A DNA stretch of 38,331 bases, taken from contig JAUIDY010000058.1 of assembly GCA_030428385.1 (NCBI GenBank), positions 1-38,331 of the forward strand, in the 5' to 3' direction. Every line of letters starts with the position of its first letter. Positions within the stretch are counted from its first letter, which is position 1. The position numbers and the translations under genes were made by a program. This document shows, piece by piece, positions 18,600-23,074 of the stretch. Below the pieces are notes generated by a model. That model made no database searches, was not told the DNA's origin, and worked only from the letters and a program-made list of their open reading frames with translations. The DNA comes from Rhodothermia bacterium. Lineage in GTDB: Bacteria; Bacteroidota; Rhodothermia; Rhodothermales; JAAAOL01.

Positions 18600-19787
18600 T
18601 TACCGATCCATTTCCTGCATAGCCGCCAATTCATCGGCGCTGATGCCGTGGATGCGGAGTTCAATCAACCGATCGATGGAGGCATTCGGAAAACCGGCCT
18701 CATGAATCTGGCGAATGTAGGAGGGGCGAACGCCATGAATTCGCATCGACACCAAGTCGTCGAGGGGAACGTTTTTGTAACCCAATTCTCCTATTTCTCG
18801 GACAAATTCCGGGGTCACTCCGTGGATACGCATCGAGACCAGTTTATCAATGGACGGCCGGCTGTATCCGAGCGCTTCAATTTCGGCAATGTAGGAAGGC
18901 GTGACGCCGTGAATCCGCATACTCACCATCTGGTCGCCCGATACGTGGCTGTACCCCAGGTCTTTGATGCTCCGCAAAAAATCGGCATCGGCGCCGTGGA
19001 TGCGTAACGACACCAGTTTGTCGGCGCTCAGCCGCCCGATGCCCCATGTCCGGGCCTCTTCAACAAACGCAGGCGTGACGCCGTGGATGCGCATACTCAC
19101 CAGTTCATCCGAAGAGAGCCCGTCGTAGCCCAGCGCCGCCATGGTCTCGATGTATTCCGGCGTGACACCATGAATCCGAAACACTATGAGTTTGTCTTCG
19201 TCGAGGTGTTGGTACCCGGCGGCTTGTAACTCACGGATATACGAAGGGGTGACGCGGTGGATGGCGAATGCCATCAGCTTGTCCAGCGACAGGTTCGCAT
19301 ATCCCAAGGTGCGGAGCTCTTCGATAAAATCCGTGGTCACATCGTGCAAGGCCAAGACCAGCAGTTTTTTCGAGTCCACGTCTCGGTAGCCCAGGTCGCC
19401 GAGTTGGCTCACGTAGGTGGCGTTGGCATCAAAGGTGAAATCGCCTGAACCTGCCTCATTCTTGAAACGCCCTTGAAATGTGACGTTGCCCGCTTGACGA
19501 TTTAGCGCAAACTCAACGGGCGTCTCGCCAATGTGGCCTGGCCCCACATGAAGGCCGTCCACTTCGTCCAGCCGCAGGGTGAACCCAAACTGGCTATGGC
19601 TCGACCGTCCCTGGTTACTCGGGCGCATATTGACCCACAAATGCGAGGTGTTGTAGTCATCATCAAAATCAAAGGTTTTGACTTCTCCTATCCAAACCCC
19701 TTCCATTGTTTGTCCTGCAGCGGGCACGGCTGCCGCAAAACCAATTAGGCTAAACAGTAGGACGGCTGATAATTGCTTCATGATCAT
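18600..19787 (-). CDS. exported protein with nine 29-residue repeats, partner of the M56 protease
   Basis: A 395-residue protein with a signal peptide (about 1-25, ending PAAGQ), a beta-rich N-terminal domain (about 28-125, starting MEGVWIGEVK) and nine perfect-length 29-residue repeats at 126-386. A typical unit reads ALGYxxLSxDKLVSMRIHGVTPxY. The C-terminus is short (LAAMQEMDR). The repeats have the same length and pattern as the thirteen repeats of the protease encoded just upstream, but with RIHGVTP where that protein has SRYDVDA. GGAGG lies 7 bases before the ATG at 19787, fixing the start. It follows the protease by 48 bp on the same strand, so it belongs to the repressor-protease operon. 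Exported and lacking membrane anchors, it is a candidate ligand, co-sensor or inhibitor of the protease; that is inference. Confidence 0.82.
   Translation of the reverse strand: MIMKQLSAVLLFSLIGFAAAVPAAGQTMEGVWIGEVKTFDFDDDYNTSHLWVNMRPSNQGRSSHSQFGFTLRLDEVDGLHVGPGHIGETPVEFALNRQAGNVTFQGRFKNEAGSGDFTFDANATYVSQLGDLGYRDVDSKKLLVLALHDVTTDFIEELRTLGYANLSLDKLMAFAIHRVTPSYIRELQAAGYQHLDEDKLIVFRIHGVTPEYIETMAALGYDGLSSDELVSMRIHGVTPAFVEEARTWGIGRLSADKLVSLRIHGADADFLRSIKDLGYSHVSGDQMVSMRIHGVTPSYIAEIEALGYSRPSIDKLVSMRIHGVTPEFVREIGELGYKNVPLDDLVSMRIHGVRPSYIRQIHEAGFPNASIDRLIELRIHGISADELAAMQEMDR
18630..19412 (-). repeat. nine in-frame 87-bp repeats (29 residues each)
   Basis: Residues 126-386 of the exported repeat protein. 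Every unit is exactly 29 residues, each with a Gly-Tyr/Phe at position 8-9 (GY mostly) and a conserved IHGVTP near the end. Repeats 4 and 6-8 are most alike (LVSMRIHGV), repeats 1 and 2 most diverged (ALHDVT, AIHRVT). Confidence 0.92.
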
Positions 19788-19835
19788 GGTTTATCCTCCA
19801 AACTGATTCATTCAGACCATTTGGGGCGCGTGCGG

Positions 19836-22562
19836 CTAGTTGTCGTCGGTTGCGCCGCGCATCTCACGAATGTAGTCACCGTCGATGTCATGTTTGCTCA
19901 GGTCGATGACCCGCTCGACGCTCAGGTTTTCGAGTCCGGCATCCCGCAAGTCGCGTACATAGGCCGCATCCACGTCATAGCGACTCAAATTGATCAAGTC
20001 CTCAATGGATAGCTGACCGAGACCCGCTCCTTGCATTTCACGTACAAACCGGGCATCTACATCAAAGCGGCTCAGGTTAATCAAGGCATCCACGGACATT
20101 TGGGCATACCCCAATTCAGCCAGTGCTTCAATGGTCTCCGGCTCCACATCGTAGCGCGAGAGCTTGATCAAGTCCTCGGTACTCAGGTTCGTGTACCCTT
20201 GCTCATTGAGCGCCCGGATCGCCGCTGGATTCACATCATAGCGGCTCAGGTTGATGAGCGCTTCGGTGGACAAATTGGTGTAGCCGAGTTCCTGCAACGC
20301 AGCAATCTGGTCGGCGTCCACGTCGTACCGGCTTAAATTGACGAGTGCTTCGGTAGACAAATTCGTGTAGCCGATACGGTTTAAGGCTGCGATCTCCTCC
20401 GTATCCACGTCATAGCGGCTCAGGTTGATGAGGGCTTCGGTGGACAAATCGCGATATCCCAATTCCTGCAAGGCTGCAATTTCCCGGGCATCGACATCGT
20501 ACCGGCTCAGGTTGATCAGGTCGGTCACCGTAAGGCTGGTGTAGCCAAGTTCGTACAAGCCCCTGATTTCCTGCGCATCTACATCGTACCGCGCCAGTTG
20601 CAGGTAATCGTTGATGCCCAGATTGGTATAGCCAAGGTCCCGCACGGCAGCGATGGTCTGTGCATCTAGGTCGTATCGCCCTGCCTGAGCCAGGTCGTTG
20701 AGGGAAAGGTTTGTCAGCCCTTCATTGTTTAACTCTTGGATATAGGCGGTATCAACGTCATAGCGGGCGAGGCTGATCAGTTCGCTCATCGACGCGTTCC
20801 CGTAGCCGTTCTCACGAAGCGCCTGCATCAGGGAGGGGTCGAGGTCATAGCGGCCATAGTTGATGAGGGCTTCCACGGAGAGATCGGTAAACCCCGCATC
20901 TTGCAAGCGGCGGATGTACTCCGGCCGCACGTCATATTTAGCCAGCGACGCCACTTCATTTAAGGTCAGATCGGTGTACCCAAGGTCTCGCAATCCCTGC
21001 ATAAACGCGGGGGTCACCCCATAGCGCCGCAGCCGAATGATTTGGTCGAGGGTCAGCGAATCGCTCAGGGCTTCATCGCCAAAAATTGTTTCAAATTGGA
21101 CATGCGGTGCCACGACGGGATCGACATGAACCATTGGATCAACATCAGGATCAACGTCGATATCGAAGTCGTGATCAAAGTCAAAATCGAAGTCATGATC
21201 GAAGTCGAAGTCGTGATCAAAATCAGGCACATCAACGATGACGGGCGGGACATGGACGTCCGGCATATCAAAGCCTGGAATGACATGCATCGGAGGAGTC
21301 GGAGGCACCGAAGGAAGCGGCGGCAAGGGCGCTTGGCTCCGCCCCATCGCCACCCGATCCGTATCGGCGGGAGCGACAGAGGCAACGGCATACCCACCTT
21401 CCCCTTCCAGGGGCGCGGGCTGCATGGCTGCCAGCGGCAGAATCAGCACTCCGAAGAGACCGGCCGTAGCAGCGGCACGCTTCCAACTAAAGGAATAGTC
21501 GCGCTTGTTATCGTCAAGAATCGCCAACAGGCGTCCTTCGAGTTGCGAACGGCGGGCCATCGCAAGGGCAGCGGGCGAGGACCACTCCACCGACCGCAGC
21601 GACTGCGCTGTTTCGAGCAGGGTCTCGGCATAGGCCGACGCCCGCGTGCCTGCTTGCAGCACCAAGTCGTCGCAGGCGCGCTCGCGTTCGATGAGCAACT
21701 GGTTCGATGCCACCCAGGCCAGCGGATTAAACCAATGGAAGGCGCAGGTGAGCTGTGCAAGCAATTGAGTGAGACAGTCGCGCCGTTTAATATGGGCCAT
21801 TTCATGGCGGAGCACCACCTTGCGCCGTTCGGTGCTCCACTGCTGGGCTTCGAGGGGCAGCAAAATTACGGGCCGAATAATTCCCACCGTCAGCGGCACC
21901 GAAGACCAAGGGCTCCAGCGAAGACGTACGAAGTTGGCCACGCCCATCTCAGCAGCGGCAATGTCTGCCAGGTCGTGCCAGGCTTCATCATCGATCAACC
22001 GTGCCCGCCGCACCATGCGACCAACACCAATATGCGCCACAGCGAGCCGCGCCAAAATGGCGAGGGCTACACCCAGCCATATCATCAAAATCCATGTCGT
22101 CCAGTGAAAAGACTGCGCCCAACGGGTGAGCATGGTCGTCACACTCCAGGTAGGAACGGACTGCGTGGCAACAGGAACTGCCGCCGATGTCTCTTCTTGC
22201 TGCGGCTCTGTAACAACAGGAGCGACAGGTTCAACGGGCACAAATCCCTCTACAGGTTCCTCCATTGTGGGAAGCGGAGCAACCGGAGCATTCGCTTGTG
22301 GCACCGGAGCACGGACGGACTCAGCGGGGAGCACCGGGATGGACCAGACCGGGAGTACCTGGGGCAAAAAGGGAAGCAGTAACAATGCCGCGATGCCAAG
22401 TGTCCAGACAAGATGGCGAGAAGCAGCCGCACTACGACGCAACGCCCACGTGATGATCCCGGCAGCAGCCAGAACGAGCAAGCCCTTCACTAGCCAGCTT
22501 ACCAGCAGGATCACGCCCGCTTGCGGATCTGAAAAAAATGATGGGGTTATTAAATCAGTCAT
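19836..22562 (-). CDS. BlaR1-type M56 membrane protease with 29-residue repeat sensor domain
   Basis: A 908-residue membrane metalloprotease of the BlaR1/MecR1 (M56) type. Membrane helices lie at about 16-40, 52-72 and 157-178, with a Pro/Val/Glu-rich loop between. The zinc site is His253-Glu-Met-Ala-His257 with the downstream IERERACDD. A fourth helix is at about 365-381. After it, where BlaR1 carries a penicillin-binding domain, there is a Pro-rich stretch, an Asp/His/Phe segment (about 446-478) and thirteen 29-residue repeats (521-897). In the known family, signal binding outside activates the protease, which then cleaves the BlaI repressor. The gene starts 2 bp after the repressor stop, so translation is probably coupled. 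The signal is unlikely to be a beta-lactam since the binding domain is absent. Confidence 0.9.
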   Translation of the reverse strand: MTDLITPSFFSDPQAGVILLVSWLVKGLLVLAAAGIITWALRRSAAASRHLVWTLGIAALLLLPFLPQVLPVWSIPVLPAESVRAPVPQANAPVAPLPTMEEPVEGFVPVEPVAPVVTEPQQEETSAAVPVATQSVPTWSVTTMLTRWAQSFHWTTWILMIWLGVALAILARLAVAHIGVGRMVRRARLIDDEAWHDLADIAAAEMGVANFVRLRWSPWSSVPLTVGIIRPVILLPLEAQQWSTERRKVVLRHEMAHIKRRDCLTQLLAQLTCAFHWFNPLAWVASNQLLIERERACDDLVLQAGTRASAYAETLLETAQSLRSVEWSSPAALAMARRSQLEGRLLAILDDNKRDYSFSWKRAAATAGLFGVLILPLAAMQPAPLEGEGGYAVASVAPADTDRVAMGRSQAPLPPLPSVPPTPPMHVIPGFDMPDVHVPPVIVDVPDFDHDFDFDHDFDFDFDHDFDIDVDPDVDPMVHVDPVVAPHVQFETIFGDEALSDSLTLDQIIRLRRYGVTPAFMQGLRDLGYTDLTLNEVASLAKYDVRPEYIRRLQDAGFTDLSVEALINYGRYDLDPSLMQALRENGYGNASMSELISLARYDVDTAYIQELNNEGLTNLSLNDLAQAGRYDLDAQTIAAVRDLGYTNLGINDYLQLARYDVDAQEIRGLYELGYTSLTVTDLINLSRYDVDAREIAALQELGYRDLSTEALINLSRYDVDTEEIAALNRIGYTNLSTEALVNLSRYDVDADQIAALQELGYTNLSTEALINLSRYDVNPAAIRALNEQGYTNLSTEDLIKLSRYDVEPETIEALAELGYAQMSVDALINLSRFDVDARFVREMQGAGLGQLSIEDLINLSRYDVDAAYVRDLRDAGLENLSVERVIDLSKHDIDGDYIREMRGATDDN
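19872..21002 (-). repeat. thirteen in-frame 87-bp repeats (29 residues each)
   Basis: Residues 521-897 of the M56 protease. The consensus unit is close to I-A-A-L-x-E-L-G-Y-T-N-L-S-T-E-A-L-I-N-L followed by SRYDVDxxx. Units 6-11 share an almost unchanged LSTEALINLSRYDVD core, pointing to recent internal duplication. Outer units are more diverged. A partial unit precedes (RRYGVTPAF) and one follows (IREMRG). The partial unit at the front carries the YGVTP form, linking it to the RIHGVTP repeats of the downstream protein. Confidence 0.93.
21129..21227 (-). repeat. Asp/His/Phe-rich coding microsatellite
   Basis: Codes for alternating HDFD/DFDF/DIDVDPDVDP in the protease, just outside the last membrane helix and before the 29-residue repeats. 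The DNA is an imperfect 6- and 12-bp tandem repeat of GATCAAAGT/GAAGTC type. The regular Asp and His spacing would suit metal binding. Confidence 0.8.
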
Positions 22563-22564
22563 GG

Positions 22565-22960
22565 CTATTTCCCTTCTTGTTTTGCCTGTTCAATGCGGTG
22601 GGCAAGACGGTCCAATTCGTCCTGTGAGAGTTCTCCCGCCTGGGTATCCAGCAGCGCAGCCATGGCCCGCTCCGTTGAGCCTCCAAAAAAGGCCGTCAGT
22701 AGGTAATTGATGGCGGAACGCTGGGCTTCGTCGCGGGTGTCGGTCGGGAGATACACGTACCGAGGGCCATCTTGCTGATGAGTCAGGTACCCTTTGTCTT
22801 CCAAAATCCGCAGCATGGCGCGCACGCCCGAATAGCTGGGCGGGTCGGGGATACCTTCGCGGACTTCAGCCGCTGATGCCTGTCCCCGCCTATAAATAAA
22901 CGTCATGATCTGGCGCTCGCGGCGCCCGAGTTCCATTGGAGAGTTTTTCTTGCGTGCCAT
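22565..22960 (-). CDS. BlaI/MecI-family transcriptional repressor
   Basis: A 131-residue winged-helix repressor of the BlaI/MecI/CopY family. The DNA-binding domain covers about residues 9-72 (ELGRRERQIMTFIYRRG, SYSGVRAMLRILEDKGYL, PRYVYLP). The C-terminal dimerisation helices carry the family motif TAFFGGS at 89-95, the region where BlaR1-type proteases cut their repressors. I chose the ATG at 22960 (MARKKNSP); an opening to 23026 would run through the upstream operator. The next gene is the M56 protease, 2 bp downstream. Two identical-arm dyads upstream are the likely operator, so the operon should repress itself until the protease is triggered. Confidence 0.93.
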   Translation of the reverse strand: MARKKNSPMELGRRERQIMTFIYRRGQASAAEVREGIPDPPSYSGVRAMLRILEDKGYLTHQQDGPRYVYLPTDTRDEAQRSAINYLLTAFFGGSTERAMAALLDTQAGELSQDELDRLAHRIEQAKQEGK

Positions 22961-22999: not shown

Positions 23000-23015
23000 T
23001 GCTAGTATTCTAGCA
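23000..23015. promoter_or_regulatory. BlaI-type operator, proximal copy
   Basis: TGCTAG-TATT-CTAGCA, a perfect 6+6 inverted repeat with a 4-bp spacer, 39 bp upstream of the repressor ATG. Its arms are identical to those of a second copy at 23059-23074. BlaI-family repressors bind short dyads of this layout upstream of their own genes. CTAG is a rare tetranucleotide in many bacterial genomes, so four copies within 75 bp are unlikely by chance. Confidence 0.8.
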
Positions 23016-23058
23016 CACCCAAACATAGCAACGCCCTACGGGGGATGCAACAGAAAGA

Positions 23059-23074
23059 TGCTAGTATCCTAGCA
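23059..23074. promoter_or_regulatory. BlaI-type operator, distal copy
   Basis: TGCTAG-TATC-CTAGCA, same arms as the proximal copy with one spacer base changed, 59 bp further upstream. It lies in the gap between the GGGPS-like gene and the repressor. The pair probably brackets or flanks the operon promoter. Confidence 0.8.

Follow-up and report, generated by a model that had tools for sequence, protein, structure and literature searches.

The locus described here raises the question of why a BlaI-type repressor and a BlaR1-type protease should be followed by a gene for an exported protein that is built from the same 29-residue repeat as the outer part of the protease, and of what the two repeat proteins have to do with each other. 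It lies in a window (the whole stretch of DNA that was analysed) of 38,331 nucleotides from a Rhodothermia bacterium. A sequence-only reading of the window had proposed that repeat-to-repeat contact between the two proteins is part of sensing. The trio is a real, conserved system, in which the protease and the repressor are ordinary and the outer domains and the exported partner are unusual.

Layout and domains of the trio

On the minus strand, running from 23074 to 18600, two palindromes are followed by the genes for the BlaI-type repressor, the M56 protease and the exported protein (Table 1). The gap between the stop codon of the receptor and the ATG of the exported protein is 48 bp, as the sequence-only reading had given it, and its assignment of the first gene to the BlaI family is borne out by Pfam. 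It had also described a BlaR1-type protease with an intact HEMAH site but without a penicillin-binding domain. Both points hold, as the motif is in place and Pfam detects neither a penicillin-binding/transpeptidase domain nor a class D beta-lactamase-like sensor domain in the M56 protein. On the same protein the NCBIfam BlaR1 equivalog model gives 81.4 bits, below its cut-off of 400. The N-terminal beta domain of the exported protein, the two operators and a second BlaI/M56 pair in the genome had not been mentioned in that reading.

Table 1. Positions of the features of the operon in the window
Feature	Position	Strand	Basis or remark
Upstream operator palindrome TGCTAGTATCCTAGCA	23059..23074	.	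palindrome; motif recurs before BlaI genes of relatives
Promoter-like TTGCA (23050-23046) and TATGTTTG (23027-23020), between the operators	23020..23050	-	similar layout in L050, L057, L063
Downstream operator palindrome TGCTAGTATTCTAGCA	23000..23015	.	59 bp from upstream operator; motif recurs before BlaI genes of relatives
BlaI/MecI-type repressor	22565..22960	-	ATG at 22960; PF03965 (Penicillinase_R) 91.7 bits, cut-off 22.6
BlaR1-type M56 membrane metalloprotease with C-terminal solenoid, 908 aa	19836..22562	-	PF05569 111 bits, cut-off 31
Zinc-binding HEMAH, residues 253-257	21792..21806	-	sequence motif
Gluzincin motif E294xxxD298	21669..21683	-	sequence motif
Disordered Pro/Asp-rich linker, residues 387-497	21072..21404	-	pLDDT < 50 over 387-492; net charge -23
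Receptor outer domain, 14 x 29 residues, two short helices per unit	19854..21071	-	unit list; AlphaFold helices 505-901
Exported repeat protein, 395 aa	18600..19787	-	signal peptide by hydropathy
Small beta domain, residues about 27-122, six strands	19422..19709	-	AlphaFold model; also inside fused M56 proteins
Exported array, 9 x 29 residues	18612..19394	-	unit list; AlphaFold helices

The M56 protein has the features of the M56/BlaR1-MecR1 family, namely the HEXXH/EXXXD motifs, a Peptidase_M56 domain, four hydrophobic membrane segments (residues 18-36, 51-69, 158-176 and 363-381) and an adjoining gene for a BlaI-type repressor. HExxH is present in all 56 repeat-bearing M56 proteins examined, and E294 and D298 are invariant across 26 aligned relatives. 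In the AlphaFold model of the receptor (pLDDT 76, pTM 0.50) the protease half is well predicted, residues 387-492 are disordered and the solenoid spans residues 505-901. The top solved match in Foldseek is S. aureus BlaR1, the entry with only the transmembrane and protease part (8exr) reaching a TM-score of 0.58 by target length.

The 29-residue period common to both arrays, noted before, lies more than 20 standard deviations above shuffled sequences in each of them: the receptor array shows 189 identities at lag 29 (shuffled mean 30.3, sd 5.3) and the exported array 106 (mean 15.1, sd 3.8). The earlier count of nine exported units is unchanged, whereas that of the receptor units, all in register, rises from 13 to 14. 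Pfam holds no family for the 29-residue repeats or for the exported N-terminal domain and gives no HEAT match in either protein; matches of the repeats to LytB, GidA and similar families were below cut-off or without a significant stretch and were discarded. The exported protein starts with a hydrophobic signal peptide without a lipobox, and its AlphaFold model (pLDDT 92.3, pTM 0.81) consists of the six-stranded beta domain followed by two nine-residue helices per unit.

By fold comparison, the nearest solved arrangement to the array is the TAL-effector/BurrH superhelix (4cj9; rmsd 12.1 A over 279 residues), at a VIA Z of 9.3 where a common arrangement and a relationship look alike. TALE-like proteins are defined by DNA-binding repeats of 33-35 residues with a variable di-residue, whereas the period in the window proteins is 29, and the array is exported, acidic and outside any DNA-binding context. 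Export and acidity of the proteins led to the rejection of DNA binding by the array, which the weak similarity might suggest.

An endonuclease I gene (PF04231, 17730-18587) adjoins the gene for the exported protein. It was not counted as part of the system, as it is convergent and none was noticed at the other annotated loci.

Pairing, fusions and a parallel HEAT class

Matches to the exported protein were found in 14 of 114 genomes of the window's order. Five exported proteins from paired loci were aligned, and a scan of 84,980 species genomes with this alignment gave 69 loci, by their record labels mainly from Acidobacteriota and also from Rhodothermia, Planctomycetota, Chloroflexi and Proteobacteria. 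This agrees with the earlier remark that M56 proteins with similar repeats occur in other environmental phyla. An M56 gene lies directly upstream on the same strand in 47 of the 51 exported-type genes with at least 1.5 kb of upstream sequence, and a BlaI gene as well in 46, a count for which the query was biased towards the paired class and many loci are close relatives. The gaps between the M56 and the exported gene range from -46 to 210 bp, with one exception of 1282. Repeat proteins scattered independently of M56 genes, which the sequence-only reading had named as evidence against a partnership, are thus mostly not what is seen.

In three proteins the M56 part, the exported-type beta domain and an array are joined in one chain, once at a locus labelled Planctomycetota (L101) and twice at one labelled Thermoanaerobaculum (L106). 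The arrays of the two fused proteins that have several units score as exported-type rather than receptor-type. As these fusions show, a module that the window encodes as a separate exported protein makes up the outer domain of the receptor itself in other genomes. Six-bladed propeller lipoproteins downstream of M56 genes at two loci (L061, L065) were ruled out by Pfam as homologues of the partner.

In the genome of the window itself the repeat is confined to the operon and to degenerate copies in the second BlaI/M56 pair (L018:3517-7472, G000:C240). In the outer part of that second receptor, DUF4097 and HEAT repeats stand together with some four degenerate units of 29 residues, and the pair is followed by a transposase-like gene. 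Elsewhere, an M56 receptor of 1440 aa with about 31 repeat matches is encoded at L062:6027-10349, in a genome in which no exported repeat protein was found.

Pfam HEAT models do match in parallel systems of relatives. Three genomes (G023, G025, G026) carry an operon of BlaI, an M56 protein with a HEAT outer domain and an exported HEAT protein, with the trios located at L260:107-3753, L261:1413-5378 and L262:547-3877. Unlinked exported HEAT genes in G091, G092 and G098 have an operator upstream. Receptor and exported protein are matched in repeat type in two families that are unrelated, the 29-residue repeat and HEAT.

Predicted operators and their targets

The elements TTGCA and TATGTTTG between the two palindromes are a candidate promoter, which we take to be of the Bacteroidota type. 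Exact copies of TGCTAGNATNCTAGCA occur twice in the 6.19 Mb genome, both at the window operon, and two-mismatch matches in this genome are not commoner than in the reversed control. Before the BlaI genes of relatives the motif is often found in two copies about 60 bp apart. The repressor shows the features of the BlaI/MecI family, a Penicillinase_R domain and palindromes at its own promoter, the latter being predicted operators.

Many Acidobacteriota use TACGAA-N4-TTCGTA as operator instead. Exact sites in 16 acidobacterial genomes amount to 19 in total versus 3 for the reversed control; they are single-copy in 14 of the 16, and a BlaI gene lies beside the site in all 14 of these. One-mismatch sites had counts near the control and were used only for the second site at the operon itself. 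The acidobacterial circuit seems to control mainly itself, and its main product would then be the exported protein.

The looser motif TGCTA-N6-TAGCA is in wider use in the order to which the window belongs. Of 76 sites examined there, 57 lie no more than 150 bp upstream of a reading frame and 11 inside one. For the reversed control the figures are 0 of 16 and 14 of 16, respectively (Fisher p about 1e-8, indicative only because the control is a sample of 16, the sites include those that first drew attention and intergenic DNA is richer in A+T). Such sites may be common to several BlaI paralogues. The genes that recurrently have such a site ahead of them in the order encode an 815-residue MacB/FtsX permease, HlyD adaptors, DUF5916 and erythromycin-esterase-like proteins, BlaI/M56 paralogues and exported repeat proteins that stand alone. 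Among the unlinked exported repeat genes, three (L054, L055, L058) have the operator 5-21 bp before the gene and a fourth (L056) has a one-mismatch operator upstream.

In the genome of the window an operator-like site (G000:C106:12075-12090, L021:4076) lies 48 bp upstream of the 815-aa MacB/FtsX-type permease, and similar permeases in G022, G028, G029 and G091 also have a site near their start. Two DUF5916 outer-membrane-type proteins of this genome are preceded by operator-like sites at 81 bp (G000:C149:13831-13846, L022:3832) and 46 bp (G000:C132:12374, L192:2875), as are similar genes in several relatives. Erythromycin-esterase-like lipoproteins of two genomes (L157:2212-3456 and L208:1490-2731, assigned by a Pfam run on the L157 protein) have the operator 21-34 bp upstream.

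Common ligand, contact or co-regulation

That the M56 receptor and the exported protein work as partners is well supported at the level of sequence, by the pairing in 47 of 51 cases, the fusions, the operators before unlinked exported proteins and the HEAT/HEAT trio. This part of the earlier proposal stands, whereas direct contact of the repeats during sensing is so far not supported, since each array occurs without the other and both are acidic. Among genomes that are 95-98% complete, G012, G015, G016 and G029 have repeat receptors but no detectable exported repeat protein, and in G091 and G098, conversely, exported repeat proteins are present and no receptor with 29-residue repeats was detected. 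The solitary exported proteins in G091 and G098 have no beta domain. From the receptors that lack a partner it follows that the exported protein is not the sole possible output. Charge complementarity was discarded, because in almost every pair the two arrays alike are net acidic; within pairs their charges correlate (r 0.54, 48 pairs, phylogeny uncorrected).

The best explanation, to which we give about an even chance, is an autoregulated circuit of the BlaI/BlaR1 type that responds to a non-beta-lactam signal and whose exported protein binds the ligand of the receptor. The gene order, the predicted operators, the fusions and the matched repeat types are established from the sequences. It is known for the family that BlaI acts as repressor and is cut by the M56 protease (PMC9834060), and from this and the intact motifs we infer both for the window system. 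The repressor would occupy the two palindromes flanking the operon promoter. The M56 protein would cross the membrane four times, with the zinc protease in the cytoplasm and the 14-unit solenoid outside on its long flexible linker. When a ligand meets the solenoid the protease would be switched on and the repressor destroyed, and the operon, with it the exported protein, would be made. Judged by the operators and by where its gene lies in the operon, the exported protein is most likely the induced output, a periplasmic or secreted binder that would capture the ligand of the receptor.

A precedent is found in BlaR1 itself, as its sensor domain and a beta-lactamase both bind beta-lactams. The sensor of BlaR1 resembles class D beta-lactamases (PMC7593790). 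Receptor and exported protein would have a common ligand, and this would be why they are alike in architecture. A common ligand would explain the fusions, the matching, the solitary occurrences and the parallel acidic charges, and the exported type of the fused arrays fits it as do the correlated charges of the same sign. However, the charge correlation and the matched repeats could also stem from common ancestry or phylogeny, and the disordered linker of about 110 residues makes mechanical signalling as in BlaR1 less obvious. As to the ligand, our guess would be a cationic, envelope-active compound, which fits the acidic arrays and the efflux-type co-targets.

The exported solenoid might instead bind the receptor solenoid as co-receptor, ligand or feedback inhibitor. 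The fusions, the tight gene pairing and the matched classes (29-residue with 29-residue, HEAT with HEAT) speak for such binding as well, but with the solitary receptors, the solitary exported proteins and two acidic arrays against it we regard it as possible, though rather doubtful. Plain co-regulation, where the exported protein is an envelope stress effector (e.g., a periplasmic chaperone or scaffold) and the repeat a duplicated scaffold with neither common ligand nor contact, would suit the diverse envelope targets in relatives (MacB/FtsX, DUF5916, erythromycin-esterase-like, HlyD). It leaves unexplained the fusions that put the exported module in the sensor position and the like-with-like pairing of the HEAT system, and is in our view unlikely. 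That the system is a genuine beta-lactam sensor whose outer domain is merely of an unusual kind is hardly credible: repressor and protease do belong to the BlaI/BlaR1 families, but the receptor has no penicillin-binding domain by Pfam, its BlaR1 score is far from the cut-off and the operator targets examined included no recognisable beta-lactamase.

Whichever of same envelope ligand or mutual recognition applies, a rule may hold across phyla for BlaI-M56 systems, by which the outer solenoid of the receptor and the exported solenoid that is induced share one repeat type; the rule could as easily fail as hold. If true, BlaR1 signalling would have a branch that serves signals other than beta-lactams and has an exported partner of its own.

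Compared with BlaI-BlaR1 and MecI-MecR1 of Staphylococcus and Bacillus licheniformis, the window system has a repressor of the same family (PF03965), an M56 protease with the same HEXXH and EXXXD motifs and four membrane segments, a single operon for both genes with palindromic operators, and an outer sensor that is akin to the secreted protein under control. It differs in that a helical solenoid of 14 units, held on a long linker, takes the place of the penicillin-binding sensor, and in that the output is an exported solenoid protein and not a beta-lactamase or PBP2a. In the open-access literature we found no description of the trio or of the signal sensed by repeat-bearing M56 proteins. M56 proteases that lack a penicillin-binding domain are common among environmental bacteria. 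What the repeat-bearing ones sense can be put to the test with a conserved trio that has recognisable operators, natural fusions and an exported partner, since this partner could serve directly as bait for the ligand. If the common-ligand explanation is true, the BlaR1 design of a sensor and an induced product with a common fold would be general beyond antibiotic resistance of Gram-positives.

An exported protein with a matched receptor suggests a self-controlled alarm for an outside signal. The LiaX-type exported sentinels of LiaFSR in Enterococcus are likewise exported effectors that feed an envelope stress circuit. The likeness is one of analogy only. It would extend to the DUF4097 in the second M56 protein of the genome and to a chloroflexal 29-residue repeat with a SHOCT-like domain, whereas the regulator, a two-component system in LiaFSR, and the fold differ. 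The chloroflexal protein (L118:6282-7585, Caldilineaceae) has the 29-residue repeat after the SHOCT-like domain, lacks an obvious signal peptide and is encoded beside a DUF2089 regulator.
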